A stretch of 64,000 nt of DNA from Brachycybe producta. Its lineage: Eukaryota > Arthropoda > Diplopoda > Playtdesmida > Andrognathidae. Each line of letters begins with the position of its first letter. The first letter of the stretch is position 1. The notes beneath the pieces are model-generated. The model was not told the DNA's origin, did not search any database, and worked only from the letters and a program-made list of their open reading frames with translations. Of the stretch, positions 15,631 to 56,045 are shown piece after piece. Position numbers and translations under genes: made by a program. The stretch is from positions 185,001 through 249,000 of the forward strand of contig JAUPFP010000022.1 in NCBI GenBank assembly GCA_036925085.1. Direction: 5' to 3'.

Positions 15631-18167
15631 TCACTCGTTAGAACACATGCAATGATATCTACGTCTATGATGCCTAGTCCTCCTCTTACATCCAAACTTG
15701 TAACCATTGCTATGACAGTCGTTTGTACAGTCTTCCGGGTGGCTCACCCCAGGACGGTGACAACCTATGATTGGAAACTATTAGTGATTGGCGTTTCTTT
15801 CTTCTAGAGCAGTGGTCGCCAAACCGTCGATCGCGAGCTACTGGTAGCTCACGGGGAAATTTTAGGTAGATCGCGGTCGCGGTCACGCTTAGGTTGGCTA
15901 ACATGAGATGCACTAGTGACTAGTGACTAATCACTAGTGCATATCAGATTAGTGAGAGTGAGGTTATGTCTGTCATGTTTTTCACACGTACATCATAGTG
16001 AGGAGGTTGTCATTATTATTTATAAGTATATCAGACTGTTATTTTATTTGTTAAGAGCCTAGGTACACCGCCATCTTGTTGTTTTGAGCAGACGACAACG
16101 AGACAAATGAGTGTTATTATATGGTGTTACTAAAACTGCAAGAAATCGCCTCACAATCGCTCAATTAAAATACAGTAAAGCGCAAAATGCAATAAAAAGT
16201 ATTGTTCTTTAATTGCTCGATTTATATAATTTTTGAAAAGGTCCTTCTATTTTTAAACAAGGTTCAAAGTCGTTCGTTTTTTCAACCCCATGTTAAATTC
16301 CATAGGATCAAAAACCGTCCCACAAACATTTGAAAAACTCTCGTTAAAACTGATTTAGAACAATAACAAAATAATTAGCACATATATTCATGTATTGGCT
16401 TCACGATGTTTCCTTTTTATAAATTTTAAAAAGGTCCTTCTATTTTTTAATAACGTTTAAAATAGTACGTTTTTTAACTCCATGTTAAGTCCCATAGGAG
16501 CAAAACACCGTCCCACAAACGTTAAAGAACTCCCATTAAAATGATTTAGAACAACCAAAAAAAATTAGCACGTACTTACACGTGTTTATTGATTTCAGGA
16601 TTATTCCTTTTTTCTAAATTTTAAAAGGGCTTTCTATTTTTAAATAACATTTAAAATCTTACGTTTTTTTGACTCCATGTTAATTCCCATAGGACCAAAA
16701 AAACCGTCACCCAAACATTTGAAGAACTCCCATTAAAAACGACTTAGAACAATCACACAAAAATTAGCACGTGCATTAATCTACTGGCTTCACGATGTTT
16801 CCTTTTTATAAGATTAGCACGCGAAATTAGTTTTCTATTAATTATTATGTGACTTCGAACCGGGAGAAAAAACGTTAAAAAACCGTTTTTCAATCAACAA
16901 CGATCGCAGCGCCTACATTCGGAGAAATTTCGAATTAAACGATGTATCTAGCCTCTTAATGTGAATAGTTATGCTAAATGTATGTTTGTAGGCAATAAAT
17001 TTTCAATGTGTGATTTATAAAAAAAACTGATTTTTTTCCTGGTTTCTTTTGGTAGCTCACAGTAAGATTTAGGAGCAGTACGGTTGCTCATTGGTTTCAA
17101 AGTTTGGCGACCACTGTTCCTAGAGACTAGAAGAGTAAATGAATCACTTAAGGGCAAGTGCAGACGACAGATGTCTAAGGCCCACAAACCACAAGTGCAT
17201 GTGACTGTCAGTTTGTTGGTGGTTATGCTTGTGCGTGGATGCCTGCCAGCATATGTAAACACTAAACCGCCCGACTACTTAGTCGTTCGTGTCTGCGTCC
17301 ATGTCAGCCAACGATTGGCTGTCGTCTGCATGGCGTTACGCGACTATGTACTTCGATTCAGTTTTGGTTATTTTGTTTTTGAAAAGCATACAGGAGGAAA
17401 CTAGAAGGTGTTTGAGAAACTAAGAATAGCTCAATCTTTTGAAAGGTAAGTGCTCCCTTTTGCCAATACATGTGGGCGCGCATGAGTCACTTAAACTCGA
17501 CTTATTCTGTGGTGGCTCAATAGATATTTATTTTGCTTTCACCCCAGATGGCGTGCCTGTGTGGCTATTAAGTTCTATAAGAGATCTCTTCGCCCCACCT
17601 GGAGTTTCGTGAAAATTTATATTTTGAAGCGACTGTTTTTCAGGAGAAACATTTCGAAAAAAAATTCAAAAAGTATTTTAGAAACTAGAATAGTTGGTGA
17701 TGGATGTTAAAAGTTTCTTCATGATATCTTTAGAAATAAACTTTTTTATGAGTTTGAAAAAGAAAGTTTTTCATGAAACGTCAATAGCATAATCTTCTAT
17801 CATTCTAAGTCCAATTTTTTCATAATGTTGTTTTTAAAAAAAATATTTGCTTGCCTTTTTTTTGTGCAAAAAACGACCTATGGAGCATAGTGTTAGCCAC
17901 TGCAGTGGCATGTTCCAGAAGGACAAAAATAAAGTAATTTTTATTAAGCCACGTACTTAAGCACAGTATACCAGAGAACATAATAGTTAATTATTATACT
18001 AGTACTTAAATAAGTAACTTAAATTAAAGTTTAGCTTACATCTGAAAACAAGTTCATTTTTACTTACTATGAGTAGTATGCACAGCTTCACAATGCTCTA
18101 CGTTTGTTGATAGGATGAACAGGAAGCCAATGAGAAACAGGAGAGAAATTGATGTCAAACTTTTCAT
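15631..18167 (-). CDS. Gene A: secreted six-cysteine CSalpha-beta defensin-like peptide
   Basis: Spliced gene with coding segments 18167-18068 and 15764-15631. Exon 2 begins after TTTATTTTAG (18193-18202). Its ATG opens a signal peptide starting MKSLTSIS, hydrophobic to about residue 20, ending ...VEHCEA, then a short VHTTH tail. The donor is GTAAGTA and the intron is phase 1. Exon 3 follows CCAATCATAG and codes for a 43-residue cationic peptide, C-x10-C-x3-C-x8-C-x12-C-x-C, rich in Arg and His, ending at TGA. The predicted precursor is 77 residues. The CxxxC and CxC spacing is that of invertebrate defensins, which are secreted antimicrobials; the activity is inferred. The intron contains the hAT element 15810-17116. 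A possible ATTAAA poly(A) signal is at 15592-15587. Promoter and non-coding exon 1 are near 18961-19047. Confidence 0.72.
15810..17116. mobile_element. Non-autonomous hAT element in intron 2 of gene A
   Basis: The ends CAGTGGTCGCCAAAC and GTTTGGCGACCACTG are inverted, typical of the hAT superfamily. Flanks TTCTAGAG (15802-15809) and TTCCTAGAG (17117-17125) fit an 8-bp target duplication with one extra base. The uninterrupted sequence TTCTAGAGACTAG occurs at the same place in genes B (24714) and D (52574). Inside are three direct repeats of about 190 bp (about 16215-16810) that share AAAGGTCCTTCTATTTTT, CCATGTTAA, CCGTCCCACAAAC and CACGATGTTTCC. No transposase frame was seen. Confidence 0.8.
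17511..17952. mobile_element. GGTGGCTGAATAG-family element in gene A intron
   Basis: The left end GGTGGCTCAATAGATATTTA and the right end (AATTTTTATTAAGCCACGT, degenerate) are inverted. Interior blocks are shared with the copies in genes B and D (AGATGGCGTGCC, CATTCTA, GGAGCATAGTGTTAGCCACT). It is non-coding and was probably already present before the gene units duplicated. Confidence 0.55.
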
Positions 18168-18960
18168 CTTAATTTATTTAATTGTACTTTACCTAAAATA
18201 AATTTAAAAAAAAACGTAACACAGTTATGTAACACTAAACCAATATGCCACTTATTTTAAACAAACACAATTCACTTTCTAAATTAAAGGGGATTCGATA
18301 TTTAGCTAATATTAATGGTCGACGTTAGACGTCATTGAAACCAATCTTTATTTCTTAAATCTGAATAGAGATGTCAGTGGTTTAGAACTGGTAGAACCGG
18401 TTTGCCAATTACTGGAACTGATAAAACGAGTTTGCCAGTATAAGTCAAACAGATAAGATTTGGTTCTGAACGGAGTAAATTCCGTTCGGTTCTACCCTTT
18501 GCCACCTCTAACTAATGTGCTTCACAAATCTAATGCATCTTGGGAATCACTTTGAACTGATTAAACCAGTTTGGAACCAAGTAGAAATGTTTTGGTTCTA
18601 CCCGTGGCCACTTCTAGATTTGGGACTATAATGGGACCGAAATTTTATTTATGAATTGATAGAGCTCGGCTCGACTTCTGCCACATTATGCACCAAGAAG
18701 CATTGTAACACCGTTTGCAAAACTTGAAAACTTGAATTCTAAGGGAATAACCACCCCTACATGGAATGTTTCCAATTGAATTAAGTATAAAAAGTACAGA
18801 GAACAATAAAGATTAACAAATTTGTTTAGCAGCAAAAAAAAAAAAAGTACCACTCAATTTCAAGAAGTGGCTCAATGGCTGAAAGCCACCTGGTATAATT
18901 ATATGAAATGTGAATTTTTGTGATTTTATAGAAAGTTTGTGCATAAATTAAATTTCTTAC

Positions 18961-19088
18961 CAATATGAGTCGAACTACGTTTTCATATACGTGTGTCACT
19001 GTGTGTGTGTGTGTGGTCGATAGTTGCTGAAACTACTGCTTTATATACTTCTGAAAGAAATACAACGGAATACAGAAATAGACACGTG
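18961..19088 (-). promoter_or_regulatory. Gene A promoter and non-coding exon 1
   Basis: On the minus strand, CACGTG (19088-19083) precedes TATATAAAG (19047-19039) by 35 bp. Transcription should start about 30 bp further on, near 19015. The 5' UTR then runs through TCGACTCATATTG to a donor GTAAGAAA at 18960. The same arrangement occurs in genes B, C and D. A (TG)n tract inside exon 1 is unique to this copy. Confidence 0.65.
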
Positions 19089-19199
19089 ATGAACATTAGT
19101 AGAAAAATAATATTTGCATTTTGAAATGTTTTTATTAATGGTGCTATATTTGTTTGAAGTCTGCTACTTTTTTTTCTGCAGGCAAACAATACTGTCATG

Positions 19200-21428: not shown

Positions 21429-21430
21429 TA

Positions 21431-22555: not shown

Positions 22556-22619
22556 TCTTTCTTTTGCTTTCTCTTCTTTTTTGACATCATTAGAAATACG
22601 CTTACGTGATAGGGGCCAA

Positions 22620-23193: not shown

Positions 23194-23203
23194 TGGGGAA
23201 AAT

Positions 23204-24250
23204 CATCATCATCATCATCATTTCCTGTACCTTATCCCGCAAGCAGCAGGGTCGGCCTTGCTGGTTCTAACTCTCCACTCATTCCGATTTTGCACCAAGC
23301 CCCCAGTGACCCCACATGCCACCATATCCCGTTTTACTACCACATCCCAGGTTTGCTTGGGTCGACACCAGGGGACCTCCTGCCTCACCCTTGCCAGTAA
23401 CTCATCCAGGACCAAAATAAATAGATATGGACTAAGTGCTGAGCCCTGGTGCACACCAATCCTAACACGAAAACTGTCAGAGAACCCCCAGGCAGTCTTA
23501 ACGCTTGTTCGTGCATCCCTATACATGTCCCTCACCATATCTATATAACTCTCACCCACCCCCTTCTTCTGTAAGACCTCCCACAATAACGTCCGTGGTA
23601 CTCTGTCATAGGCTTTCTCTAGATCTATAAATACCATGTGTAACTCTTTCTTGGCAGCCCGAAACTTCTCAATAACTTGCCTTACGGCAAAAATAGGGTG
23701 CATTGTGGATTTTCCTGGCATAAACCCAAACTGACTTCCCCCAATTGCAGTTTTATCCTGTAGTCGAGCTTCAATTACTCTCTCCCAAAGCTTCATCGTA
23801 TGACTCATCAATTTAATACCTCTATAGTTCCCACATTCCTGAACATCACCCTTCCCTTTGAAAATAGGCACTAACCAGCTGTCCCGCCATGCACCTGGCA
23901 TTCTATCCCCCATAGCCAATCTATTGAATAACTTTGTGATCCAGGAAATGGCAACATTCCCCAAGACCTTCCACACGTCTACTGGTATCCCATCTGGCCC
24001 TAAAGCCTTCCCTAGCTTCATTTTTCGCAATGCCTGAACAAGTGGGGTAGCCGTCCACTGTGGGGTAGCCCTTGCCAATTTGTCACAGCCACCGGGCGTT
24101 GCAGCTGCGCATCGCTTATGGCGGGGGATGCCCTAGCCATACTCGGAATACTATTTCGAACCAACATCATATGTTTTGGCAAATCTTTACAACCGGCTGC
24201 CAACCTGACGTCGACCCTCCACTTTTGCACCCGGGCTGGGGAACCGGCAT
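23204..24250 (-). pseudogene. Internally deleted RTE-type LINE copy
   Basis: It is a close relative of the full-length LINE at 41410-44660, in the opposite orientation. It keeps the 5' leader (about residues 1-60), loses the whole endonuclease and linker, resumes at the VQALRKMKLGKA region of reverse transcriptase, and loses everything from just before the FADD catalytic box to the C-terminal 50 residues. A 286-codon frame remains open across both joints but has no ATG and no catalytic aspartates. It ends in an (ATG)n tail (23206-23220). Flanking TGGGGAAAAT at 23194-23203 and 24251-24260 is the target duplication, and the 5' end is truncated relative to the full element. Confidence 0.88.
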
Positions 24251-25187
24251 TGGGGAAAATGAGATCAATTTAAATTAAAAAATAAATATATTGAAATTCT
24301 AACCATTTCAATATATTTATTTTTTAATTTAAATCAGTTACAATGTTGAAATTTTTAAACATTTGTGTAGATTATATTAAAGTTCCCAATGTGCAGTTCG
24401 GGTAATTAATTAGTGTCAACATTGACTTAACTTCATTACAGTGCATTAAAATAAACAACTTATTTATTAGGTGTGGTTGGTGCCATTTCCAATTTGCATC
24501 AATCAGTCCAACTTTTCCAACTTTTTTTCTTCTACTTTCTGTGTTGTGTTATCAGTTGAAAAAATGTTACCAGAAAAAAATTAAAAGAAAATTAATTAAA
24601 ATATAATTTAAAACAATATTTCATACTTACTATTGGCTCCATTGTGAAACGAATTTCACTCACTGGTTAGCACCTAGGATTGGAAACTATTAGTGACGGT
24701 GTTTCTTCTAGAGACTAGAAGTCAAGGAATCACTTAAGGGCGAGTGCAGACGACAGACAGTCGATGATTGACTAGATTGTAGTAAGAGGTCAGCACACAC
24801 GACCGACCAACAGTCTGTCAGATGTCTGAGGCCAACAAACCACAGGCGCACGCGACTGTTAGTTTGTCTGATGTTGTGCACGTGTGTGTGATGGCTGCCA
24901 TCATATGAAGAACCCCCAGAACCAAGGGGTCACTTAAACCAGACTTATTCTTTACTTAAGGTGGCTGAATAGATATGGTTTGTTTTTCGCCCCCTTCCTC
25001 TCCAGTGGCTCCACTGCATGGCTATTGTGTTCTACATAAGGGATTTTCTCCGTGGCAATACTAAAAGTTGTTTTTAATGATAATTTCTTTCAAAATAAAC
25101 GTTTTACGATGGTTTGAAAATGATAAAACGAAAAAAAGGTGTCATTTTCAAACAGCTGTAAAACGTTTATTTTTTTAAGATACATTG

Positions 25188-26345: not shown

Positions 26346-28313
26346 GTGGAATCGCGAAAGAGACTTGTGGCTACACACACCACGTGTCGACCGCGCGATT
26401 CTGTGTCCTGTCCTTAGAGACACGTGGGAACGAACTTTTCTCTGCTGACCGCTTAGCACTCGGAAAGTGGACAACCGTTTGGACACACGTGTTTCCGTCC
26501 GTGTTTTTGTATTTCATGTTTCCATTACAATCACCCACTGTCACCTTCACTCTTCTTTAATTTTCAAAGTGAAACCCACACCACGTGGGCAACACTTTAA
26601 ACAAATTCTTCTTACTCTCCGAGAGGAGTTTGCAGTCTCATTATGAGATGAGCAAACAAATCTCATCTACTAATCTATTCATCTATTAATAGGCTTTTAA
26701 AGGACGTGTGTGTCTTTTAAAATGTCCTATTATCTTCACTCTTCATCTTTAATTTTCAAGCAAGATTCTCCCTAGCTCTATTTCATTGTTAGGGGGCTTA
26801 CAAGCTTAAAACACACTTTTTCTAGCCACGTGGGACTTTCTTGTCCCCCCTTTTCTTTGTTCTTTGTTTTTACACTTGTGTTTCCCTTGGGACCCTCTAT
26901 GTCCCAAGTCATGTTCTTCAATTTCTTCATCATCATCACCTCAATGCATCATCACATGAACTTTCTCCATTGGACAACACTGAAGCCCGGCCGCCATCTT
27001 GGATCGACCGGACACTCTTCAAAAAGCGCCAACGGAGCGGTTTTTCGCTCCATGTGACTCATTGTTGTACCTTCTCTCATCTTTTTGTGTTCTCTTCTCT
27101 TCTCTTCTCTTCCAGAGGGTTGCACTCACGCGCCCCCTGGCGGAGTTCCTCTTGTTAGAGAAAACTTCTCTTTTTCTTTGAATTTTCTCTCTTTTTGTGT
27201 CTTTCTCCTGGCCACCATAAAAACGTGCCCCGGAGGAACTTTTCAATCATCAATTTTTGGACATTGCAATAAACTGAACCGGAAGTGGCCACCTCAGCGC
27301 CACCTACGGACTTCTTCCTTCTACTCAACATAGTCCCTCACTGGGCACTGACTCTGTCTTTTCATCCAGAGCCATCCAGCAGTGAGGACTCAAAATTTCT
27401 CCAGTCTGAACATTTCTTCTGGTTCACCAAGTATTTATCTTGTTGAACACACTTCAATTTCTACACTGTTTTACTGTTTTAATAAAACTAAATTGAAACT
27501 TTTGATGTGCGGGCACCGCACCTAAGTTTTAAACTTTCAAAGTAAAACAGCTTTCTTTTCTTGCTTCTTTGGAGAGTTCAGCCATCTTGAACTTCTCCTT
27601 TGTTTGTGCATTTAAAAAGTTCAGCCATCTTGAACTTTTTGTTCTTTGTGTGTTCTTCACACACACACTCTTCATTCTTGTTTCTAAGTAAAACTAAAAG
27701 TGCGGGCACCGCGCTCTAGCTTTACTCTTCGTATTGCTTTCCTCTTCTTCAGGCAACTGCAATACACTTCCATTTCTAATTCACTTTCCGCAGTGCAATC
27801 TTGATTGGGTGGTGTACCACGCTCGAGGTTGTATTGTACATCTGCTGTTTCTTTATTGAGGTTTTTGGAATTCTCGTAACCTCCACGCGGTCGCCAAATA
27901 CCACGTGTTGAGAGAGATCCTTCCAAAATCTGACGCTCAATAGAGAACTCACGACGCTACACCAGTTGGGAACCAAAACTCATCACACGCCCAACTGAGA
28001 ACACGATCAACACGATACAACCATCACCACACTAACGGAGTGAACGGCCACTTCGTTATACACGTCACAAGCTTAGGTAATCTATCGTTACTCAGTGTAT
28101 AAGAGTACGATAGTGTCGGTTGCCGACAAGCACTAAGTTACCGATGCACAGTGACGACACCGACCTACAAACTGAACGAGTCCCATCATACTGGAACCGA
28201 AAAGTATAGCTCAGAGTGTACTCGAGAACCCTCGGAGCTGCACACAACGACTTGGACTTCGCCGGACTCGTTCATCACCGCACATTCACATTACACAAGC
28301 CACTTCATTAATC

Positions 28314-30695
28314 ATGGCTACCTCACACGACAATACGGGGTCCCTGTCTGATCACCAGGGTTCGCACGAAGATCTGTTGGAAGTACCCGTGACTACTGAT
28401 GTGACACCACCGCCGCGGCCGACTGGGGCCGAGTTTGACCACCTGTCACAACAAGTGGCTGCACTCTCGACTCGTATGTCTCAGTTCATAGACGACCGAT
28501 TCACGCCGAATCGACCGACTACACCACGGCGGACAACACGCACACACCGACTTCGCGACGATGACTCGGACGCCTCTTCAGCCCCCTATGTTGGCTACAG
28601 AGAGCGTCACGATCGTTACGAAAGACATTACACACCGCACACACGTCATCTACCGCGTAACCCTGACTGGCAACAACAAGGGCAGTCAGATGATCCGCGT
28701 CACAGAGATGAGCGTGCGGAAATACCGATCACGACACGTGCTGATTCTCCTCACTCGCTTGTCCGGGTTGCACGTAGCGGTCGCCGCTCGACACCCCCGG
28801 AACAACAGCCTAGCCAAGGAGCGACACAAGGCACTTCAGTTTACGCGCCACGTTTTCCACCGCAAGGGGTAGGTCTGATGCCGGCTGGAATGTCAAACGT
28901 CCAGGATGGCATCTATCGACCAACCCCCAGAGAACCCTCCGTGGAAGAATTCAATAAGAAATACAGCGGTCGCCACCCAGCCGACTCAATCCAAAAATTC
29001 AACGGATTGACAGGTTTCCGTCCCTTCCTGGAAGAATTCGAGGAAGTAGCACACCTGTACGGTTGGAAAGACCACCACAAGGAGGAATACATCACGGGGT
29101 GTTTCACTGGGGCCGCCCGCACGTGGCTGAGTAAACTGAGGTATGAGCTTCAGGACATTCCTTGGCCAGCACTGAGAGTACAGATGGTAGATACGTTCGG
29201 GAAGCCGAACGAACTGGCCATCTTGGAGAAAAAGTATACAGAGATGCTCCAGAAGGAAGGTGAGAGTACACAAGCTTTCATCTGGGAGTTTATGATACTC
29301 GGCGACCGAGTTTACCCGCAACTTGACGATCAGCTGCGTATAAGCCAGTTGCGCCGCGCTCTACATCCCACCATACAGAACGCCGCGCACCACGCATCTA
29401 CGACGTCGTTCAAGGACTTCGCAAACGCCGTCCTCAATATGGAGGTGGTCTTGCTGTCCTTGGATAAATGGCCGACGGAACCAAAACCCGCAGCTGATTC
29501 ACAGTCGGGTAAAGGAGCATCGAAGACCGACCAGGAGCCGGCGGCAGCCGCCAGCCCTAAAGACAAACCACACCGGTCTAGGCATGATAAAAAGCCTAGT
29601 CAGACTGCTGCCACCAATTCAAACCGACACTCTGCAGCGGACACCCAACCAGAGACCACTCGCACGTTCGACAAGAGTAAGTCGACGTGTTATAATTGTG
29701 GCAAATTGGGGCATTTCGTCCGTGAGTGTCGGCAACCAAAGAAGAAGGTTGCAATCAAGCAGTTTGGAGAGCCGGTTACCGACTATGACATCAAAGGAGA
29801 GGTGCCTGAAACGGATATCATCACCGAAGACGGCGTTGAGTTTGCTCTAATAAGAGTGGCGGGACAAATCCGCCGGATTCCTCTTCCAGCAGCAGACTCA
29901 GCCGCCGGAGCGCCTACTCCTGATAAACCCGACAACGACAGTTCTGACGACTCTGAGGATATACCAGTCAAGGTGCTCGACCGGGCTCCTGCACATAAAT
30001 GGACCCCGGACGATCTAATCGTTTGGCAGGACACGCTCGACGTCCTTAAACAATCCGTCAAGGAGATTGGGTGCCGTGAAAATAAAACAATAGCCATCAT
30101 GGCTCCCGGAACCCAATCGCCGACGAAGGGCCACTCCTGCTGCCGAAGACTAATGACAACGGTGTATGAGCAGCTGGTAAGCAGCTGTTCACCTCAAGAA
30201 GTCGGAGACTATGATGCCAGCGACAAGAACCCGCGCATCGCCGTCACGATCAACGGAAAGAGTATACGGATGCTCGCGGACACCGGAGCTACGGGCAGCG
30301 TTATCACCATTGAACTCGCGCAGGAACACAAGTTCGAAATCGAGCCTGTGTTAATCCCACCCAACATTCAGGGTGTGGGAGGCCAAAGGATCACCGTGGT
30401 GGGGCGACTCGCCGCGACGGTCCAGCTAGGCCCCCACGCTGTGCGAGGGCACTTACTAGTGATTACCGGCCGGCACGAAGCCATCTTAGGCCGAGATCTA
30501 GGCCGGGCTCTGCACTTAGCTGTGTCCATGACAACAAACAAAGTATACGTGGAGGACGATCTCTTCGAATCCACACTCCGACAAAAATGCATTGAAGCAC
30601 ACATCGGATGGGCTCTGGGAGAAACTTCCGTAGAGGCCCCTGGCAAATCTGCCAGCACCTCTAAGGAAAACCTCGAAACTCCACCCCGTAAGTGA
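28314..30695 (+). CDS. Gag-protease polyprotein of the LTR element
   Basis: 793 codons from ATG to TGA. Residues 1-200 are polar, rich in Pro, Arg, His and Thr. Residues about 210-360 resemble the gag region of Ty3/gypsy-type elements (FNGLTGFRPFLEEFEEVA, then a tract around AARTWLSKL and a Q.F.WEF region). A CCHC zinc knuckle, CYNCGKLGHFVREC, lies near residues 460-473. A retropepsin domain follows at about 640-735, with the catalytic triplet in LADTGATGSVI and the C-terminal motif AILGRDLG. The protein would form the capsid and mature it. The frame stops about 60 residues after the protease; no polymerase follows in any frame. The 2.4-kb leader before the ATG is unusually long. Confidence 0.9.
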   Translation: MATSHDNTGSLSDHQGSHEDLLEVPVTTDVTPPPRPTGAEFDHLSQQVAALSTRMSQFIDDRFTPNRPTTPRRTTRTHRLRDDDSDASSAPYVGYRERHDRYERHYTPHTRHLPRNPDWQQQGQSDDPRHRDERAEIPITTRADSPHSLVRVARSGRRSTPPEQQPSQGATQGTSVYAPRFPPQGVGLMPAGMSNVQDGIYRPTPREPSVEEFNKKYSGRHPADSIQKFNGLTGFRPFLEEFEEVAHLYGWKDHHKEEYITGCFTGAARTWLSKLRYELQDIPWPALRVQMVDTFGKPNELAILEKKYTEMLQKEGESTQAFIWEFMILGDRVYPQLDDQLRISQLRRALHPTIQNAAHHASTTSFKDFANAVLNMEVVLLSLDKWPTEPKPAADSQSGKGASKTDQEPAAAASPKDKPHRSRHDKKPSQTAATNSNRHSAADTQPETTRTFDKSKSTCYNCGKLGHFVRECRQPKKKVAIKQFGEPVTDYDIKGEVPETDIITEDGVEFALIRVAGQIRRIPLPAADSAAGAPTPDKPDNDSSDDSEDIPVKVLDRAPAHKWTPDDLIVWQDTLDVLKQSVKEIGCRENKTIAIMAPGTQSPTKGHSCCRRLMTTVYEQLVSSCSPQEVGDYDASDKNPRIAVTINGKSIRMLADTGATGSVITIELAQEHKFEIEPVLIPPNIQGVGGQRITVVGRLAATVQLGPHAVRGHLLVITGRHEAILGRDLGRALHLAVSMTTNKVYVEDDLFESTLRQKCIEAHIGWALGETSVEAPGKSASTSKENLETPPRK

Positions 30696-32171
30696 CGACG
30701 AAAGCAACGGCCACCCACGCTGTCAAGAAACCAAACGCGACGAAAATAAAACAATAATTCACCAGTGTTTATTTCATGACTATGGAAATAAACACCAGCA
30801 ACCATCAAATATCAACAATAGAAGAGCGGGAGGAATTTAAGAAACAACTGAGGACAGTTGTCAAGAGGTGGGGGAGGGGATAAAAGGAACCCCCCAACGA
30901 ATAAACAACCCCACAGCATCAACAACCCCTCTAAACACTCTCAAATAACTCCCAAAACTCTACAAAATTCACACAACTTTAATTTTTGAAACACTTCTAA
31001 ACTTTTCAACATGGCCGCCAATATTTACATATTGGCAACCATTTCAAACATGCAATAAACTACACCGGAACCACGTGGCCTTCACAAACAACTGTCAACC
31101 ACGTGGTACACCTGGGAAAAACGCCGAAGGCTAGTCAAGGACGTTCAGAAGAAAAATCAAGAGCCATAAAAGGGTCAGCAAAAGAAAAACACCGTGCTCC
31201 CCTTTATTATGGACGAACGTCATTGACCATGCTGTTGACAGTAGAAGGATAGAAACTTCAAAGAGACAATTGCTCTGGGGGCCAGACCAATGCACTGGGA
31301 CTTCAAAGAAAAAAAAAACGAACAACAAAAACTGCTGGCCATAAACAAATAAAAAAGGAAGAAAATCAGTTTTGAAGATTTTGTGAGAGCGGACACCTTC
31401 AATTAAAAAATAAAATTGAAGAACCTGTCACCCTCTCAATTAAGATCGAATTGTGGGACACCAACTCCTGCCCCACTCCCCCCTAAAAATAATAACAAAC
31501 AGCAAGGTACATTAGTAACCTTGCTGACCTATTCTTTCCAAAAAAGGCATTAAGGAAAAGAAGGGGAGAAAGTTAATGGGCAACTTCACACCTCGGTGTG
31601 AAATAAAATAACGGCCCTTCCCCCACGAGATTCCTTAGTCCTTTTGTTTATCTAAAAATAATAAACAGGACCGACTCTGATAAGAATTAGATCAACACCT
31701 CTCACATCTAATATCGGTGGGACAACCCCCACCCCCAATAAATAAAGTCGTGAAGAAACCAATTAGAGTAAGGTGTCTTATTCTAAAAGGGGCCGGCCCT
31801 TCTAACTTTTAAAATTAAATAAGAAAGTGACCAAACTTGGTCAATTACCACTCGATTTGCTCTCTTCAAAGAAGCACTCGTTTTTGTTCATCTCTTTATG
31901 CTCGATCTTCTTCAATCATCAAATCTTCAATCTACTTCTGTGCCAAGTTCCAAATTTTAATTTCGAACTTCTTCAGTTTTGTTGTCAATCCAAAGCTTGA
32001 GTACCACCTTCAAGCCTTTGAACTCACGTGCAGTGCATCAGGCCTTCAGAACTCTTTGGACCTCTTGAAATAATAACAGAGTGATCGGGGACCGATTTCT
32101 GTTATTATTTGGAAGTAACCACCAGCAGCGGGACTTTTGAAAAAGTAAGAACTTTCTAACTCTTAAGAAAT
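30696..32171 (+). other. Non-coding spacer of the LTR element
   Basis: 1.5 kb where pol would be expected. It has stops in all frames and no reverse-transcriptase or integrase motif. A purine-rich tract followed by GATAAAAGG (about 30867-30886) could be an internal TATA-like promoter for the second ORF. Two CACGTG boxes lie at about 31070-31105. Confidence 0.6.
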
Positions 32172-35440: not shown

Positions 35441-35937
35441 ATTGCCATGAAAAAACTTTTAACATAATTTTTACCATTCTAGTTTTGAAAATTCCATTTT
35501 TTTCGTAATGTTTCTAAAAAAAAAACGGTTTATGGAGCATAGCGTTATCAACTGCAGTGACGCATTCCGGTAGGACAAAAACAAAATAAAATTTCTATTC
35601 AGCCACCTAAAGCACAATTGCAGAGAACATGCTAATTACTTCTTATAGTATTAATTATTATATAAGTAACTTAAAATCAAAGTTTAGCTAACATCTCTGA
35701 AAGTAAGTTAATTTTTACTTACTAGGAGGCGGATTAACCCCGATGACGGTGCACATGGTGATGACTGTGCGTAACTTGACGACGGGGTGGATGGTGACGA
35801 TGGTGCGGATTGTGGTGATGCACCGTATGGTAGTGATGCCGCACATGGCGCCCACGAGCTTCACAATGGTCTACGTTCTAAGATATGATGAACAGGAAGC
35901 CAATGAGAACCACGACGGCAATTGATGTCAAATTTTT

Positions 35938-36195: not shown

Positions 36196-36363
36196 TGTGT
36201 GATTAATGCTGTACAAACTTGTTTTATATATAAGTTAATGCTGTAGAGTAAATTGTGATATTTTAAAAAGTTGTTTGATGGTTCGAAGCCACCTGGTATA
36301 ATTATATGAAATGTGAATTTTTGTGATTTTAAAGAAAATTTGTGCATAAATTAAGTTTCTTAC

Positions 36364-36480
36364 CAAAATGAGTCGAACTACTTTTTCGTATACGAAAGTG
36401 TGTTGTGGTCGATAGTTGCTGAAACTACTGCTTTATATACTCCTGAAAGAAATACAACGGAATACAGAAATAGACACGTG
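36364..36480 (-). promoter_or_regulatory. Gene B promoter and non-coding exon 1
   Basis: CACGTG (36480-36475), 35 bp, then TATATAAAG (36439-36431), a 5' UTR running through CGTATACGAAAAAGTAG to CTCATTTTG, and the donor GTAAGAAAC at 36363. It looks intact although the downstream gene is broken. Confidence 0.6.
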
Positions 36481-41409: not shown

Positions 41410-44400
41410 CCGTGGGGGTAGTTGGTCCCCTATCGGGTGCCTCCCCAGGTGGCGGATAGGGGAATGCCCGCCAGATATGGAGGGTACTGAGGGCATAAAA
41501 TACTCAGGGCAGACCAAAACCAAACCACGCCATTGCCGGTCCCCCAGCCCGGGTGCAAAAGTGGAGGGTCGACGTCAGGTTGGCAGCCGGTTGTAAAGAT
41601 TTGCCAAAACATATGATGTTGGTTCGAAATAGTATTCCGAATATGGCTAGGGCGTCCCCCGCCATAAGCGACGCGCAGCTGCAACGCCCGGTGGCTGTGA
41701 CAAATTGGCAAGGGCTACCCCACAGTGGACGGGTGGGGCTAAAGAAGCGAGTCCAGCACCAACAACAAGGAGGGCTTGGAAGTAGTGGTAGAAGTGGAGG
41801 TACTAAACTTAGGTTTGGCACCTGGAATATAGGGAGTTTGACAGGGAAGACTAGGGAGTTATCTAGGGTGCTAAAGGCTAGGAGGGTAAATGTTGCATGT
41901 CTGCAGGAGACAAGATGGAAAGGGGATAAATCCAGGGACATTGGGGATGGGTATAAATTAATTTATGCAAGTAGTGAGGAGGGTAGAAATGGAGTGGGAA
42001 TTGTCCTAGATCAGGAACTCAGACATAGTGTGGTTGAGGTTAGGCGGATAAATAGTAGGCTGTTAGTAGTAAAGGTAGTTTGGGGTGGCATTGTTATAAA
42101 TGTAGTTAGTGCATATGGCCCCCAGGTTGGATTAGATACAGCCAGGAAGCTAGCATTCTGGGAACAGTTTGATGACCTAATGTTGGGCATGAGTAGGAAG
42201 GAACGGGTCATAATTGGTGGGGACTTTAATGGACATGTAGGTAGAAATAGGGAAGGGTATGAAGAGGTACATGGTGGGTGGGGCTATGGAGAGCGAAATA
42301 AAGAAGGGGAGAGTATCCTGGAGGCAGCAGTGGCACATAAGTTAATTTTAGCAAACACACTATTCCAGAAGCGAGAGGAACATTTGATTACTTTTAAGAG
42401 CAGGGCAGGAGAATCCCAGATTGATCTCTTCATGATTCGGAGTGAGGATAGAAACGAGTGCAAGGATTGTAAAGTGATACCGAGTGAAAACTTAGCGGGA
42501 CAACATAGGCTAGTAGTGTTAGACCTAAAACCTAGGGGTGCAAAACAGGTGGTCAGACATAGAGGACAGACAGCAATTAGGTGGTGGGCATTACCAGACA
42601 AGGTGGAAGAGTTTAAGAAAATGGCAGGTAAGATAGCATGGGATTTAGATGGCACTGCAGGAGAGCTGTGGACAAGGGTAGCACAACAGATCCGTGATTG
42701 TGGAAACGAGGTACTAGGGACAGTACGAGTAGGGGGGTCTCGATTAGACAGAGAAACTTGGTGGTGGGATGAGGAGGTACAGATGGCAGTTAAAAAGAAG
42801 AAAGATGCTTTCAAGACTTGGTGGCACGATGGAAGCAGGGAGGCCCAGATAGAATACAAGCGTGCCAAGATAGAGGCCAAACAGCAGGTAGCCTTAGCAA
42901 AGCATAAGAAATATGCGGACATGTATGCCAAGTTAGGTACCAGAGCAGGAGAAATGGCAGTATATAGAATAGCTAGGGCTCGGGAGAATAAAGGCAGAGA
43001 TATTGAAAAGGTGGTGAGTGTTAAGGATAATGGGGGCAAAGTATTGTGGGGTAGGGAGCCAGTACGGAACAGGTGGGGGGAATATTTTAGTAAGCTTATG
43101 AATGAGGGGGTAGAGCAGGAGCCTTCCACTGGAAGAAATAATGATAGAAAAGAAGTGGAGCAGGTTAGGGCTGAGGAAATTGTTCAGGCATTGCAAAAAA
43201 TGAAGCTAGGGAAGGCTTTAGGGCCAGATGGGATACCAGTAGAGGTGTGGAAGGTCTTGGGTAATGTTGCCATTTCCTGGCTCACAAAGTTATTCAATAG
43301 ATTGGCTATGGGGGATAGAATGCCAGGCGCATGGCGGGACAGCTGGTTAGTGCCTATTTTCAAAGGGAAGGGTGACGTTCAGGAATGTGGGAACTATAGA
43401 GGTATTAAATTGATGAGTCATACGATGAAGCTTTGGGAGAGAGTAATCGAAGCTCGACTACGGGGTAAAACTGCAATTGGGGGAAGTCAGTTTGGGTTTA
43501 TGCCAGGAAAATCCACAATGCACCCTATTTTTGCCATAAGGCAAGTTATTGAGAAGTTTCGGGCTGCCAAGAAAGAGTTACACATGGTATTTATAGATCT
43601 AGAGAAAGCCTATGACAGAGTACCACGGACGTTATTGTGGGAGGTCTTACAGAAGAAGGGGGTGGGTGAGAGTTATATAGATATGGTGAGGGACATGTAT
43701 AGGGATGCACGGACAAGCGTTAAGACTGCCTGGGGGTTCTCTGACAGTTTTCGTGTTAGGATGGGTGTGCACCAGGGCTCAGCACTTAGTCCATATCTAT
43801 TTATTTTGGTCCTGGATGAGTTACTGGCAGGGGTGAGGCAGGAGGTCCCCTGGTGTATGCTGTTTGCAGATGACATAGTCTTAGTTGGGGAATCCAAATT
43901 AGAACTCGAGATAAGGTTAGAGGAGACTAGGAATGCCTTGGAATCAAAGGGGTTGAAAATAAGTAGGGCAAAAACGGAGTACATGAAATTCCAGTGGGAT
44001 GGGAAAGAACAGTTGAATGAGGGGATTAGACTTGGGGACAGTTTAATGCAGCAGGTGCATGACTTCAAATATTTAGGATCTGTGCTGCAAGATGATGGGA
44101 GCTTAGACTTAGACATCACAAACCGGATAAAAGCAGGTTGGCATAGGTGGAGGCAGGCTAGTGGGGTTTTATGTGACAGGAAGTTACCTATAAAATTGAA
44201 GGGAAAGTTTTATAGAACAGTAGTCAGACCAGCTATGTTGTATGGGTCAGAATGTTGGGCAATCAAGAAGGTGCATGAGGATAGAATGCAGGTAGCTGAG
44301 ATGAGAATGCTAAGGTTTATGAGTGGGGTGACCAGAAGGGATAGGATCAGAAATGATTTTATTAGGGGTAGTGTAGGGGTAACAAATATAGTAGAAAAGA

Positions 44401-44660
44401 TGCAGGAAAATAGGCTGCGGTGGTTTGGGCATGTCCTCAGGAGTGGAGAAGATGGGCTGCTGAGACAGGCAATGAACTTAGACCTGGGAATAAAACGGGG
44501 TAGAGGAAGACCCAAGCAAACCTGGGATGTGGTAGTAAAACGGGACATGGTGGCATGTGGGGTCACTGGGGGCTTGGTGCAAAATCGGAACGAGTGGAGA
44601 GTTAGAACCAGCAAGGCCGACCCTGCTGCTTGCAGGATAAGGTACAGGAAATGATGATGA
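41410..44660 (+). mobile_element. Full-length RTE-type LINE
   Basis: A 19-bp perfect target duplication, TGAAATGATTAGAAATTTC, flanks the element (41391-41409 and 44661-44679). It has a short GC-rich 5' leader, one long ORF, essentially no 3' UTR and a (ATG)n-type tail, all typical of RTE-clade LINEs. It is inserted in the 3' flanking repeat of gene C; the uninterrupted sequence is visible near 52080-52130. Confidence 0.93.
41613..44654 (+). CDS. LINE endonuclease/reverse transcriptase
   Basis: The first ATG in frame is 41613 (about 1013 residues). An in-frame open stretch begins further upstream, with GTG at 41553. Order of domains: an APE-type endonuclease at about residues 65-310 (GTWNIGSLTG, QETRWKGD, SAYGP, GGDFNGHVG, QHRLVVLDL), which nicks target DNA; a linker; reverse transcriptase at about 520-800 (LGKALGPDGIP, VPIFKGKG, GFMPGKST, FIDLEKAYDRVP, HQGSALSPYLF, and the catalytic MLFADDIVL); then a thumb and C-terminal region (LRWFGHVLR). 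All catalytic boxes I can check are present and the frame is unbroken, so this copy may be active. Length fits RTE ORF2; no separate ORF1 is seen. Confidence 0.93.
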   Translation: MMLVRNSIPNMARASPAISDAQLQRPVAVTNWQGLPHSGRVGLKKRVQHQQQGGLGSSGRSGGTKLRFGTWNIGSLTGKTRELSRVLKARRVNVACLQETRWKGDKSRDIGDGYKLIYASSEEGRNGVGIVLDQELRHSVVEVRRINSRLLVVKVVWGGIVINVVSAYGPQVGLDTARKLAFWEQFDDLMLGMSRKERVIIGGDFNGHVGRNREGYEEVHGGWGYGERNKEGESILEAAVAHKLILANTLFQKREEHLITFKSRAGESQIDLFMIRSEDRNECKDCKVIPSENLAGQHRLVVLDLKPRGAKQVVRHRGQTAIRWWALPDKVEEFKKMAGKIAWDLDGTAGELWTRVAQQIRDCGNEVLGTVRVGGSRLDRETWWWDEEVQMAVKKKKDAFKTWWHDGSREAQIEYKRAKIEAKQQVALAKHKKYADMYAKLGTRAGEMAVYRIARARENKGRDIEKVVSVKDNGGKVLWGREPVRNRWGEYFSKLMNEGVEQEPSTGRNNDRKEVEQVRAEEIVQALQKMKLGKALGPDGIPVEVWKVLGNVAISWLTKLFNRLAMGDRMPGAWRDSWLVPIFKGKGDVQECGNYRGIKLMSHTMKLWERVIEARLRGKTAIGGSQFGFMPGKSTMHPIFAIRQVIEKFRAAKKELHMVFIDLEKAYDRVPRTLLWEVLQKKGVGESYIDMVRDMYRDARTSVKTAWGFSDSFRVRMGVHQGSALSPYLFILVLDELLAGVRQEVPWCMLFADDIVLVGESKLELEIRLEETRNALESKGLKISRAKTEYMKFQWDGKEQLNEGIRLGDSLMQQVHDFKYLGSVLQDDGSLDLDITNRIKAGWHRWRQASGVLCDRKLPIKLKGKFYRTVVRPAMLYGSECWAIKKVHEDRMQVAEMRMLRFMSGVTRRDRIRNDFIRGSVGVTNIVEKMQENRLRWFGHVLRSGEDGLLRQAMNLDLGIKRGRGRPKQTWDVVVKRDMVACGVTGGLVQNRNEWRVRTSKADPAACRIRYRK

Positions 44661-44910: not shown

Positions 44911-45823
44911 TCAATTGCTAGCACATGTGCAATGTCTACCTTGATGCCTATGCTGAATAGCCGTCTCACATCCATTCTTGAATCCACGAAGATGACATTG
45001 TTTTCGACAGTATCTCACAATAGAGTCACGACGACTTTGACAACCTATGATTGGAAACTATTCGTGACGATGTTTCTTTCTTTTAGGGACTATAGAAGAG
45101 TAAATGAATAGCTTAAGGGCGAGTGCAGACGACAGACAGTCGGTGACGGACTAGAGTGTAGTAAGGCCAGCACACACGACCGGCAGTCTGTCAGTTGTCT
45201 GAGGCCGACAAACCGCAAGTGCACACGACCGTCTGGTTTGTCAGTGGTTGTGTTTGTGCATAGTTTCTGTGCACGTCCACGGCCGTGTACAGGTGCTCCA
45301 TCCCACCGCCGACAATAAGGTTTGTGGGAAAAAATAAAAAATGTCTCATCTTTTGCCCCGGAAAGTCTAATTACTTATAAGTAATTAGACTTTCCGAGAC
45401 AAAAGATGAGACATTTTCTAGTCGGGCTTCTTAAAGAAGCCGTACTGTTCGTTCTGGCAATAACTGCCACTGATTCTGTCGTCTGCACTCGCCCTAAGGT
45501 TTTTTTTTTTTAAAGTGTAGTCAAAGTGTGTCATTAGCAAAATGTAGAGAAACTAGAAATTGTTTTCGAAAGTAGAAGGGTTGCTCAATCACTTCAGGTT
45601 ATTTTCTTGTTGATATATTTGAAAATAAGCTTTTTATGTGAGCTATTCAGCCTCCTTAAGCACAATTTCAGAGAACGTGATAAGTAACTTTTAAAGTGCA
45701 GCTTATATCTGAAAAACAAGTTAATTTTTACTTACTAACAGCTTGACAATCGTCTACATTCGTTGATAGGATGATCAAAAAGCCAACGAGAAGCACAACA
45801 GAAAATTTTGTCAAATTTTTCAT
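44911..45823 (-). CDS. Gene C: secreted six-cysteine CSalpha-beta defensin-like peptide
   Basis: Spliced gene with coding segments 45823-45736 and 45044-44911. Exon 2 follows the acceptor TTTATTTTTTAG (exon starts 45848). The ATG opens a signal peptide MKNLTKFSVVLLVGFLIILS ending ...VDDCQA, then V and a phase-1 donor GTAAGTAAA. Exon 3 follows CCAATCATAG and codes for 43 residues, C-x10-C-x3-C-x8-C-x12-C-x-C, with HLRGFKNGC and a His/Arg-rich loop, ending at TGA. The precursor is 73 residues with no His-rich propeptide. AATAAA lies 40 bp downstream (44871-44866). The 691-bp intron holds a Harbinger-like MITE. Exon 1 and promoter are near 50114-50230, so intron 1 is about 4.3 kb, enlarged by two solo LTRs and a palindromic element. 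Antimicrobial function is inferred from the fold signature. Confidence 0.76.
45117..45494. mobile_element. Harbinger-like MITE with nested palindrome, in gene C intron
   Basis: Inverted ends GGGCGAGTGCAGACGAC and GTCGTCTGCACTCGCCC are flanked by TAA on both sides (45114-45116 and 45495-45497). The left-end sequence also occurs in the introns of genes A (17150), B (24740) and D (degenerate, 52615), so the insertion may predate duplication. A perfect-looking ~80-bp palindrome is nested at 45337-45418. Confidence 0.72.
45337..45418. repeat. Long palindrome inside the MITE
   Basis: AAAATGTCTCATCTTTTG at the left pairs with CAAAAGATGAGACATTTT at the right, and AAAGTCTAATTACTTATAAG continues to the centre of symmetry at TTATAA. 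Only the short CCCCGG/CCGAGA segments are mispaired. Confidence 0.85.
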
Positions 45824-47695: not shown

Positions 47696-47748
<53 letters not shown>

Positions 47749-47777: not shown

Positions 47778-47812
47778 AGCATCTCAGATTGAGAACATTT
47801 CCAGATATACAT

Positions 47813-49675: not shown

Positions 49676-50113
49676 TATATAATAAATACAACGAACAATA
49701 AAGGTTAACAAATTTATGAACAGCAGCTATTGGTAACAAAAAGGACCATGCAAAATCGCTGTATAAGGTGAACGTTTTCATTTTTTTTTTTTGGTTATTG
49801 TGAGTTGCTTCACAAACTTGAGAAGTATGAAATCGGAACAAAAAGAATATTACTTAATCTAAATACATGTATATAAATTTCGTTAAATTCAATTCCGTAC
49901 TAAGTTTCGCCAAGTCCTTATTATACGTTACATATTAGTGTGTTCAACGCATAATATGTGTTATTTAAGTTGATATCTAACCAAAAAATGATGTAGAATA
50001 AATTATGGTGCTTTAAAAAGTGGCTCGATGGTTCAAAGCCACACGGTATAATTACATGAAAAGTGAGTTTTTGTGATTGCAATCGAAGTTTGTGCATAAA
50101 TGAAATTTCTTAC

Positions 50114-50230
50114 CAAAATGAGTCGAACTACTTTTTCATATACGAAAGTGTGTTGTGGTCCATAATTGCTGAAACTACTGCTATATATACTCATGGAAGA
50201 AATACAATGGAATACAGAAATAGACACGTG
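50114..50230 (-). promoter_or_regulatory. Gene C promoter and non-coding exon 1
   Basis: CACGTG (50230-50225), 35 bp, TATATATAG (50189-50181), then a 5' UTR running to CTCATTTTG and the donor GTAAGAAAT at 50113. Assignment to gene C rests on order along the array. Confidence 0.55.
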
Positions 50231-50450
50231 ATGAACATTAGTAGAAAAATAATATTGCATTTTGAATGTGTTTATATTAACAGTGCAATTTTTGTTTGAA
50301 TGCTGCTACTTTTTTTTTCTGCATGCAAACAAAACAATTATGTACTTATGAGAAAGGGTTGCAAACGTTTTCGTCATTAGTAGTATTTATCTTGTCTCAT
50401 TTTTGTAGTTAAACCCAGGCTGCCAAAAAAAAAATATTATATATATAATA

Positions 50451-52380: not shown

Positions 52381-52422
52381 CTTTATTTCATACTTACTAT
52401 TGGCTCCATTGTGAAACAAATT

Positions 52423-53670
52423 TCACTGCTTGTTTGAACATCTGCAAAACCTAGGATGTGGCTTACATCCCATCTTGAATCCACGTTTATGACATTTGGT
52501 TTGACAGTGTGGCGTTTTCGGCAAACCACGACAACCTACGATTGGAAACTTATTAGTGACGGTTTTTTCTTCTTCTAGAGACTAGATGAGTAAATGAATT
52601 GTGGATGGCACGGATAGGCGAGCGCGGATGACACAGAGTTGGAGGCAGACTAGACTGTAGTAAGGTCAGCACACATGACCAACAATCTTTCAGATTTCAG
52701 AGCCCAAAAAACCACAAGAGCACGCGACTGTTGGTTTGTAGGTGGTTGTGCATCTGCGTGGATGCCTGTCAATCATATGCGCGCCCCACCCAGAACATAT
52801 GAGTCACTTAAACTCGACTTATTTTTTACTTAAGGTGGCTGAATAGATATATATATTTTGTTTTTGCCCACAGATGTCTCCATTGCATGGCTATTATGTC
52901 CTAAAGGAGGTCTCTTCTCGGGAATCTGCTTTTATATTTTTCAATTGAACTTTTTGAGAAATAGAAACATTACTAAAAAATTAAAAATGTTTTATCAACC
53001 GGAATAGTTGGTGGCAATACTAAGTTTTTTTGATGATGATATCTTTCAAAATAAACTTTTTATGAAAGTTTGAAAATGGCAAAAATAGTTTTCCATTAAA
53101 ATATTGATGGAAATACCCCCCCCCCCCCAAAAAAAAAGTGTCATTTTCAAACTGAACTAACTATAAAGTTGTTTATTTGTTTAAATATTGCTATGAAAAC
53201 ACTTTTAACATAGCCTTTTACCATTCTAGTTTTGAAAACAATTTGAATTTTTTCAGAATGTTTTTTTAAAAAATAGCTTGCTTGACGTTTTTACGTTCCA
53301 ATTTGACAAAAAACGGTCTACATGTGTACGGAGCATAGTGTTAGTCATTGCAGTGGTGCGTTCCGGAATGACAAAAACAAAATAAATTTCTATTCAGCCG
53401 CCATAAGCACAAATCTCGAGGACATAATTAATTAGTATACTAGTACTTAAGTAAGTTAAATTAAAGTGTAGCTAACATCTCTGAAAACAATTTTAATTTT
53501 TATCTACCATGAGACCGATGGTGTCCATGGTGATGGTGATGGGGATGGGGATGGGGATGGTGATGGTGATGGTGATGTCCTGGAAAAGCTTCACAATCGT
53601 CTACGTCCGTAGTTATGATCAGCAGGCAAACGATGAGACACACGACAGAAATGGATGTCAAACTTTTCAT
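52423..53670 (-). CDS. Gene D: defensin-like peptide with a histidine-rich propeptide
   Basis: Spliced gene with coding segments 53670-53508 and 52535-52423. Exon 2 follows TTTCTTTTAG (exon starts 53698). The ATG opens a signal peptide (MKSLTSISVVCLIVCLLII) ending ...VDDCEA. A tail FPG follows, then seven His, three Pro-His steps, five more His and GHHRSH, and exon 2 ends in phase 1. The donor is GTAGATAA, weaker than the GTAAGT of A and C; without splicing the frame would stop two codons on (Gly-Arg-stop). Exon 3 follows CCAATCGTAG and codes for 36 residues, C-x8-C-x3-C-x8-C-x6-C-x-C, ending at TGA. The precursor is 91 residues. AATAAA is at 52387-52382. The His tract could bind metal ions; this is inference. 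Confidence 0.73.
52834..53402. mobile_element. GGTGGCTGAATAG-family element in gene D intron
   Basis: The left end GGTGGCTGAATAGATAT (preceded by TAA) and the right end AAATTTCTATTCAGCCGCC are inverted. The interior has the shared blocks AACATAGCCTTTTACCATTC and GGAGCATAGTGTTAGTCA. It preserves the uninterrupted ATTGCTATGAAAA site that is occupied by the LTR retrotransposon in gene B. Confidence 0.65.
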
Positions 53671-55929
53671 TTTAATTTATTTAATGTACTTTATTTATCT
53701 AAAAGAAATTTAAAAAACAAACAAACAAGACGTAGGACCAATCAGTCACTTCTTTTAAAAACAATTGTTTCTATTAAATGGGATTTAATATTTAGCTATT
53801 ATTAATGGTTGACATTAAATGGCGTTGAAACTAATCCTTTTTTTTTCTTAAATTTGACTGAACTCGGCTTTTGTTTAGTCTTTTTTCACCAAACAAATGA
53901 AACTCAAGAAAAAAATGTTGTTCATTAAGTTAACCCTATTTACATTATATAATTAGACAATTATTGCTCGTAGAGCAATAAGTGGGAATGGAGAAAACAG
54001 GGCGAAATTTGTCGGTCAATAAGAATGGATTCCAAACGTTCTTTCCCCACTAGTTAATTTAATTATGATTAATTTGTCATCAGATTTTGAAATTTATTTC
54101 TGGGTGGTTCGACACGTATCAAGGATTCTACTCATTTAATTTAGTTTTTTTTTTTTAGAAAATGGCAACTATTTTTTTATCATTTTTTTAAAAAAAAATT
54201 CACTTTACTGTTTAGAATTTGAGTATTTCTTATATGAGCAGCTACTCAAATACGTCAGATGAAAGTGAGAAGCCACGAAAAACGAAGTAGAATGAAAAAA
54301 ACTTTTCCTGCGATTAGTGATGTGTCATGGAAATATTTCACGTGAAATGTATTTGAAATATTTCATTTCATCGAAATATTTCATATGACATGAGTTTAAA
54401 ATATTTTTAAGAAATGTGATATTTATTTAAAAGCTTGTTTCCAACTACTGAAACCATCAACGAAGAAATGGTGATTGTAATTGGTTCATAAGAGTATTTT
54501 AATCATGTTTTCAAACATAAACATGGCATGATACTTATGTGGCTGGCACCCTCAAATTACATCTTAATTGAAATGAAATTTGAAAAAAAAATAATAATTC
54601 TTACACCTTGTTTCTATTGGAGTGAAAAGATGAACTTTTTAAAAATTTCAACTGGTGAAAAATACAAGAAACGTGGCCCCACCTATTCACTGTCATAGGT
54701 GAGGAATTATCCACATAGTGGAAGCAAGGGAAAAGTTGCGAGTAGTTGTAAATCAAACGAACCTAAAGTGGCCGTGCAGCACGGATAGCTTCTTAAGTAC
54801 AAAACTACTGGATAATTTTAAAACCTTCTGTAAGGAAATCTTCGCAAATGACGAATAAGAAATAAAGGAGAAGAGCTATTGGATTTTTAGGCTTAGGCTT
54901 TTCCCAATTAAAGGGTCTTCTTAGGGGCTTGCTACTGGGTGGGTCCAGGCTGAACCAACCATACCTTGATGCAGGTAACAAGAGAGTAAGCTGTGAAGAA
55001 TGCCCTTATACCCTCTGGGTGGGTGGGGCATATAATCATTCCTGTCATAGGCAAGGACCAGGTTTGCTCAACTTTTCACCAATTAACATTTTCAAGAAGT
55101 TCAAATGTTCTTCCCAATGGAAACATGGCCTTATTAGACAAATACGAATATAAAAAAAATCCAGGATGCAGTAACTTTACAAGTGTAATTTCATTCAAAA
55201 ACTATGTCTAATTATTCTACGATTCTATTTCATGGATTTCAATTAATTTTACAACTTTTCAATATATTATATAAATTGCTTGAAATATTTCTACAAAATA
55301 AATGTCATGAAATTGCCCATCACTCACTAGCTGCAATAAAAGAAAGTTTTCTATTTTGCACACTTTTGTTTTCACACAATATTAAGTAAGGGACTCCACT
55401 GACAATCACAGCCTTGCTTTCTGTTGGGTGCAAGACAACCAAGTGATTCTGACTAGTTTTTTTTTCCAAAAGGGTTGCTTCCTATATGTAAAGTGATGTG
55501 CATTGTGAACATAGTTATTGTACGTAACGAAACGCAACGGAGCAAGAAAAATAAATAATTTGCAATACAATAACGATATTGATTCTTCGCTTAGCTTTGT
55601 TATAGTAACGTTTTGCGAAGTATAAACCAAGCCTTAGAAAAATTTCGTAGATAATTTCGTATGAAACGAAGTATAAGTGCGCATGCACAGAAGCGAAATT
55701 ATCTTAAAAAAGCAATCTTAAATTTTTGCAGCAATATAGACATCTATGTGATGCAATGAATTTCGATAGTGTTTCTCGAATCCCTTGTTTTATATTTAGT
55801 TAACAATGTAGAATAAGTTATGGTATTTAAAAAAGTGGTTTCATGATTCGAAACCAACTGGTATAATTTACATGAAATGTGAATTTTTGTGATTTTAAAG
55901 AAAGTTTGTGCATAAATTAAGTTTCTTAC

Positions 55930-56045
55930 CAAAATGAGTCCAACTACTTTTTCGTATACGCAAGTGTGTGTGGTCCATAATTGCTGAAACTACTGCTATA
56001 TATACTCATGGAAGAAATACAATGGAATACAGAAATAGACACGTG
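55930..56045 (-). promoter_or_regulatory. Gene D promoter and non-coding exon 1
   Basis: CACGTG (56045-56040), 35 bp, TATATATAG (56004-55996), then a 5' UTR with CGTATACGAAAAAGTAG ending CTCATTTTG and the donor GTAAGAAAC at 55929. Intron 1 is about 2.2 kb with no other exon seen. Confidence 0.62.

Follow-up and report, generated by a model that had tools for sequence, protein, structure and literature searches.

In a 64,000-nucleotide stretch of the Brachycybe producta genome (the window; C22:185001-249000, where C22 is contig JAUPFP010000022.1), minus-strand genes for small six-cysteine peptides form a tandem array that continues on the same contig. In our view, the array probably encodes secreted host-defence peptides that form a lineage-specific family, grown by tandem duplication and built on the cysteine-stabilized alpha-beta (CS-alpha-beta) scaffold; some of these peptides may carry a metal- or pH-responsive histidine tail. 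The reading rests on paralogous units with a common gene anatomy, a constrained core promoter, and a mature-peptide exon that has diverged at an accelerated rate around retained cysteines.

Anatomy of the array

A preliminary description of the window had proposed an array of four units (A to D). Copies of the promoter and exon 1 do lie upstream of all four, but the array runs past the window and has six known units; E and F were retrieved by genome-wide DNA searches and a protein search of the assembly (295.3 Mb, 442 contigs). Units A, C, and D share one plan: a TATA promoter, exon 1, a signal-peptide exon 2, a phase-1 intron, and a six-cysteine exon 3 with a stop (Table 1). Spliced in silico in phase 1 at TAG acceptors, they give open frames of 77, 73, and 91 residues, respectively. 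The three-exon, six-cysteine genes described earlier are thereby recovered, and the exon 3 remnant of unit B agrees with the loss that had been attributed to it. The two B remnants are separated by ∼11 kb containing inserted elements, and two large open frames lie between them (window 28176-30695 and 32160-34349, both +), the first of which, judged by eye, resembles a gag frame with a zinc knuckle.

In unit E the TATA element contains a gap and the acceptor AG is lost; use of the next AG, one base on, would truncate the product at 43 residues. No promoter or exon 1 copy for unit F was found between F and C22:297000. We consider A, C, and D to be the fully intact members; B and E look broken, and F is uncertain. 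Exon 1 appears to be noncoding. A short coding leader within it was considered and rejected: an ATG is present in C, D, and E and missing in A and B, making a conserved upstream frame unlikely. A fragment at window 51140-51020, examined as a further gene, matched an intron only.

The six-cysteine pattern occurs three times in the window (A, C, and D) and nowhere else in it. In 60 block-wise Markov shuffles, the mean number of occurrences was 0.017 for the strict pattern and 0.033 for the loose one (maximum, 1), and a chance origin was rejected. As genome-wide DNA queries, the exon 2 and exon 3 regions of unit C returned six and seven matches, respectively (E values up to 0.001), all in the cluster, in searches that skip very common words and that more diverged copies may escape.

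Table 1. Coordinates of the array units and of related exons (window positions unless a contig is given)
Feature	Coordinates	Strand	Remarks
Unit A, core promoter (TATA) and putatively noncoding exon 1	18941..19083	-	exon 1 with donor; shares homology with the four remaining promoter copies
Unit A, exon 2 coding part	18068..18167	-	signal peptide and VHTTH; donor GTAAGT, phase 1
Unit A, exon 3	15631..15764	-	six-cysteine mature peptide, spacing 10/3/8/12/1; stop
Unit B, core promoter and exon 1 copy	36344..36475	-	93% identity to D core
Unit B, decayed exon 2	35720..35937 (approximate limits)	-	no in-frame start; stop in signal region; histidine-rich remnant
Unit B, exon 3 remnant	24640..24686	-	cysteine-coding part deleted
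Unit C, core promoter and exon 1	50094..50225	-	95% identity to D core
Unit C, exon 2 coding part	45736..45823	-	signal peptide; donor GTAAGT, phase 1
Unit C, exon 3	44911..45044	-	six-cysteine mature peptide, spacing 10/3/8/12/1
Unit D, core promoter and exon 1	55910..56040	-	core promoter TATATATA
Unit D, exon 2 coding part	53508..53670	-	signal peptide and histidine-rich segment; donor GTAGAT, phase 1
Unit D, exon 3	52423..52535	-	six-cysteine mature peptide, spacing 8/3/8/6/1
Unit E	C22:255553-254382		broken splice acceptor; damaged TATA
Unit F	C22:265448-264322		intact frame and splice sites
Acidic six-cysteine exon pair	C25:3453509-3453631 and 3448474-3448593		tandem, 5 kb apart; spacing 10/3/8/7/1
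Gene G	C22:285343-287314	+	acidic CS-alpha-beta-like peptide; TATA-like element, signal exon, phase-1 intron; spacing 11/3/11/7/1

Divergence of the units

Between units, the core promoter and exon 1 differ by 2.3 to 13.3%, compared with 16 to 33% in the surrounding DNA, and the core value is the lower one in 10/10 pairs. For unit A, the core is 8 to 13% different from the other copies and its flanks are 30 to 32% different.

The mature-peptide exon behaves in the opposite way. Among units D, E, and F, it differs at 22 to 26% of positions (29/111 in D/E, 25/111 in D/F, and 24/111 in E/F), while nearby noncoding DNA differs at 7 to 10% (102/1385, 126/1307, and 110/1335, respectively; Fisher P values of 1.2e-8, 1.5e-4, and 4.3e-5). 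Pairs involving A and C were left out of this comparison because they are too diverged. The excess persists against flanks within 150 bases (P values of 5.9e-4 for D/E, 1.3e-3 for D/F, and 1e-7 for E/F), and the signal peptide differs at 2/87, 7/87, and 7/87 positions in the same three pairs. All six cysteines are invariant, compared with 2/30 of the other ungapped columns (P value of 1.4e-5). Both the conserved promoters and the diversifying mature residues of the preliminary description are thus borne out. By the Nei-Gojobori method, the ratio of nonsynonymous to synonymous substitution rates (dN/dS) for the signal peptide is 0.30 to 0.78 in 9/10 pairs, the remaining value of 1.97 resting on a single synonymous change; for the mature exon, it ranges from 0.78 to 3.22 and is above 1 in 7/10 pairs.

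A second peak of divergence, 23 per 100 columns in D/F and E/F, falls on the histidine-coding end of exon 2. This variable end encodes VS in C, a run of histidines in D, and one of Arg/His in F, and the exon 2 remnant of B is histidine rich as well. The predicted mature peptides contain 20 (D, with 17 before the cysteine domain), 8 (A), 7 (F), and 4 (C) histidines. The segment in D overlaps a 6-base tandem repeat (window 53527-53577; plus-strand unit ATGGTG, 8.5 copies), and slippage there could lengthen or shorten it. In each of A, C, D, E, and F, an in-frame stop lies just inside the intron; if the intron were retained, a short N-terminal peptide alone would result.

Cysteine pattern, fold, and relatives

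A six-cysteine array with CxxxC and CxC is present in A, C, D, E, and F, in the C25 exon pair, and in gene G; the spacing is 10/3/8/12/1 in A and C and 8/3/8/6/1 in D, E, and F. The disulfide pairing of CS-alpha-beta peptides is 1-4, 2-5, and 3-6. An AlphaFold model of the D mature peptide (predicted local distance difference test score [pLDDT] of 76.9) contains a helix (H9-18) and two strands (E23-26 and E31-34); among its matches listed from the PDB, the one structure library compared, 14/16 are scorpion toxins or drosomycin, each a weak match with an E value of 2.4 or worse. The model of A, the other peptide modelled, has the same order of helix and strands (pLDDT of 67.1). The cysteine array of the peptides thus fits the CS-alpha-beta superfamily, as does the predicted fold of D; the fold assignment of the preliminary description stands for the spacing and the D model, with less from A, whose model is of low confidence.

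In A, in C to F, and in both C25 exons, a glycine directly precedes the fourth cysteine (xGC), eight residues after the third. This arrangement departs from the gamma-core GXC signature, as the glycine lies one residue closer. The gamma-core cysteine is placed "generally" at the fourth of the six, a general wording and not a definition of the superfamily (Tarr, PMC5116183). KCXN at the gamma-core cysteine combined with a short n-loop, a channel-toxin criterion, does not occur in A (GCKR), C (GCET), D (GCKP), E (GCKL), or F (GCNP).

In Pfam, PF25052 (AtDEF-like) matched A at 19.9 bits (E value of 9.4e-4), under its 25-bit cutoff, and was not listed for C or D. PF01097 (Defensin_2) was not among the matches of the three spliced peptides at E values up to 10, a range in which HMMER filters drop most matches above 0.1. 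A genome-wide search with the PF01097 profile returned no matches, and its control likewise matched nowhere.

A protein search with A gave a weak match to an exon on contig C25 (E value of 0.096). The C25 exon pair (Table 1) is repeated on C128, as found with the first C25 exon, and this second copy is possibly an uncollapsed haplotype. Upstream of the exon at C25:3453509, a signal exon (MKSFKAFSIMVLIGILL...) with a phase-1 donor resembles the cluster signal peptide; no signal exon was found for the other exon in the 1.5 kb examined. The more distant gene G has a weak relative 240 kb away at C22:45340-45438 (-) (E value of 0.068). It would sit among kinase exons on the opposite strand (C22:278911-290449, -), which resemble a CaMKK-type kinase by eye. 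Matches to the A query on C4, C17, and C57 were rejected, as each contains 3 to 4 stops; the C4 match resembles the reverse strand of the gag-like frame in the window. At C14:3661694-3663600, long open frames join CxxxC...CCC domains to extended serine-rich stretches, and another cysteine domain comes after in the same frame, an unusual build for a defensin-like protein.

The window can be recognized as eukaryotic from its spliced genes and its elements. Directly downstream of unit C, a 1051-residue frame like that of a long interspersed nuclear element (LINE; window 41499-44654, +) has endonuclease and reverse transcriptase kin, with best identities of 40 to 53% among the best 120 of 1210 protein matches; truncated LINE kin lie at window 23218-24132 (-). 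Two tandem arrays occupy window 9320-10304 (a 28-base unit that contains GTCGAC, repeated 36 times) and 13713-14217 (a T-rich 23-base unit, repeated 22 times). A gene for SGLT, joined by eye, lies 12 to 18 kb left of the window. In a midpoint-rooted tree of 41 rows, it groups with database proteins lgn1-3 (99/86), together with which it falls on the pancrustacean side of an 88/92 split (below the starred level), alongside an ostracod, Artemia, Daphnia, barnacles, springtails, and malacostracans. From this single gene, the host would be placed as a crustacean-grade pancrustacean. Notodromas and Artemia stand beside the query in an order not settled by the tree. Notodromas is first among the SGLT matches listed, and repeated segments in its record probably inflate its score.

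Function and known systems

In the scheme we favor, each gene would be driven by its own TATA promoter and exon 1 would remain untranslated. Exon 2 would supply the signal peptide and a variable, often histidine-rich N-terminal stretch, and exon 3 would supply a disulfide-rich cationic domain, whose most likely action is to attach to the surfaces of microbes and damage them. Between the cysteines, residues may be driven to change, and the histidines of D, and partly those of A and F, may add pH-dependent charge and metal binding. The locus combines putatively secreted, disulfide-rich, cationic peptides with tandem gain and loss of genes, a strongly conserved promoter, and a fast-changing mature exon; host-defence peptide families show this combination, and so do venom peptide families. 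We prefer host defence for two reasons: the peptides lack the KCXN toxicity motif, and their charge is high. The peptide family of the preliminary description is thus supported, while its immune role is one that we infer.

Several results weigh against the host-defence interpretation. The profile check of the spliced peptides against defensin families, suggested earlier, gave a negative result: no Pfam family scored above its cutoff for A, C, or D, and profile-based annotation would therefore miss these peptides. None of 13 candidates proved to be a protein homologue of the cluster alignment, and the low-confidence A model had no match in the PDB. The C25 relatives are acidic (charge of -4); positive charge is therefore no trait of the wider family. 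The comparison with noncoding DNA covers D, E, and F, of which E and perhaps F may be dead, and gene conversion of the flanks could mimic the excess in the mature exon. The excess is also not wholly coding: over the 60 bases that follow the stop, D/E and D/F differ at 12/57 positions, almost the level of the mature exon, and E/F differ at 0/60. The expected difference in dN/dS between exons 2 and 3 holds only in part, because without E the mature exon exceeds 1 in just 3/6 pairs, with few synonymous sites. Finally, a scan of ∼1.5 kb upstream of exon 1 in units A to E with a kB-like motif gave four matches (two in A and one each in B and E), none at a shared distance. Acute induction by NF-kB is thus not supported, and NF-kB control of the array was set aside.

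The main rival, which we judge unlikely, is that these are gland or venom peptides in which the same fold was recruited to target the ion channels of prey, hosts, or enemies. In known toxin families the mature exon evolves faster than introns, and here the mature exon is likewise above the noncoding rate. The lack of a common kB site speaks for this rival, as do the 13/16 listed D fold matches that are scorpion channel toxins, although such matches reflect which CS-alpha-beta structures have been solved. Putative CS-alpha-beta xibalbins 4 and 5, found in remipede venom glands (PMC5577568), also speak for it. Against it, the KCXN toxicity motif (Tarr 2016, PMC5116183) is absent, the residue before the fourth cysteine being glycine in units A, C to F. 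Histidine runs, too, are unusual for toxins.

More doubtful still are non-immune secreted peptides on the same scaffold, with metal-handling, gut, reproductive, or signalling roles. The 20 histidines of D and the acidic relatives point in this direction, as do plant histidine-rich defensins, of which 4/4 tested bound metal and 2/4 were antifungal (PMC7557933). C, however, has just four histidines yet shares the common promoter, which makes metal binding unlikely as the common function. It is very improbable that the locus is a decaying relic with no expressed gene, its frames surviving through recent descent: B and E are broken and F lacks a promoter copy up to C22:297000, but promoter, donor, acceptor, frame, and cysteines are intact in A, C, and D, and the core promoter is kept well beyond its flanks.

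Within the host-defence interpretation, a more speculative and rather unlikely proposal is that the genes encode animal two-part defensins, in which a fast-changing histidine tag and a fast-changing CS-alpha-beta domain flank a phase-1 intron and form a metal- or pH-gated antimicrobial; a retained intron would release the histidine part as a histatin-like peptide. No animal CS-alpha-beta peptide with a histidine-run N terminus was found in the literature searched, a survey that was not exhaustive. Metal binding by the tail, if it occurs, would give animals a counterpart of the histidine-rich defensins of plants. The locus is also a compact natural experiment, with paralogues of graded age, a frozen promoter, a racing mature exon, and acidic relatives elsewhere. 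The literature searched turned up few crustacean CS-alpha-beta peptides. Since profile-based annotation would miss peptides such as these, crustacean repertoires may be undercounted.

Among known systems, the invertebrate six-cysteine CS-alpha-beta peptides, whose crustacean members are mentioned (PMC5116183), share the cysteine array, and the cluster n-loop of 8 to 10 lies inside their range of 4 to 16; the cluster departs from them in having xGC for GXC and no match to Pfam Defensin_2. Remipede xibalbin 4 (PMC5577568) is likewise a putative CS-alpha-beta peptide but comes from a venom gland and has the spacing Cx12Cx3Cx5Cx5Cx5CxCxC. Plant histidine-rich defensins (PMC7557933) have a CS-alpha-beta domain and at least 6 histidines, a count reached by A, D, and F, but they contain eight cysteines, with histidines mainly in loop 5 in the two main clusters, whereas the cluster peptides have six cysteines and the histidines of D are mostly N terminal, from the signal exon. 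PpRcys1 of the barnacle Pollicipes (PMC12195476), with 12 cysteines in an 85-residue mature peptide, is also secreted, cysteine rich, and predicted to adopt a CS-alpha-beta fold, and antibacterial activity belongs to PpRcys1 itself. The nasonins of Nasonia vitripennis (PMC2853521), compared by gene architecture alone, differ in that no positive selection was detected and the available text mentions no histidine-rich segment. They nonetheless resemble the cluster as tandemly duplicated CS-alpha-beta genes without a propeptide and with a phase-1 intron after the signal peptide, and nasonin-1 is active on two Gram-negative bacteria.
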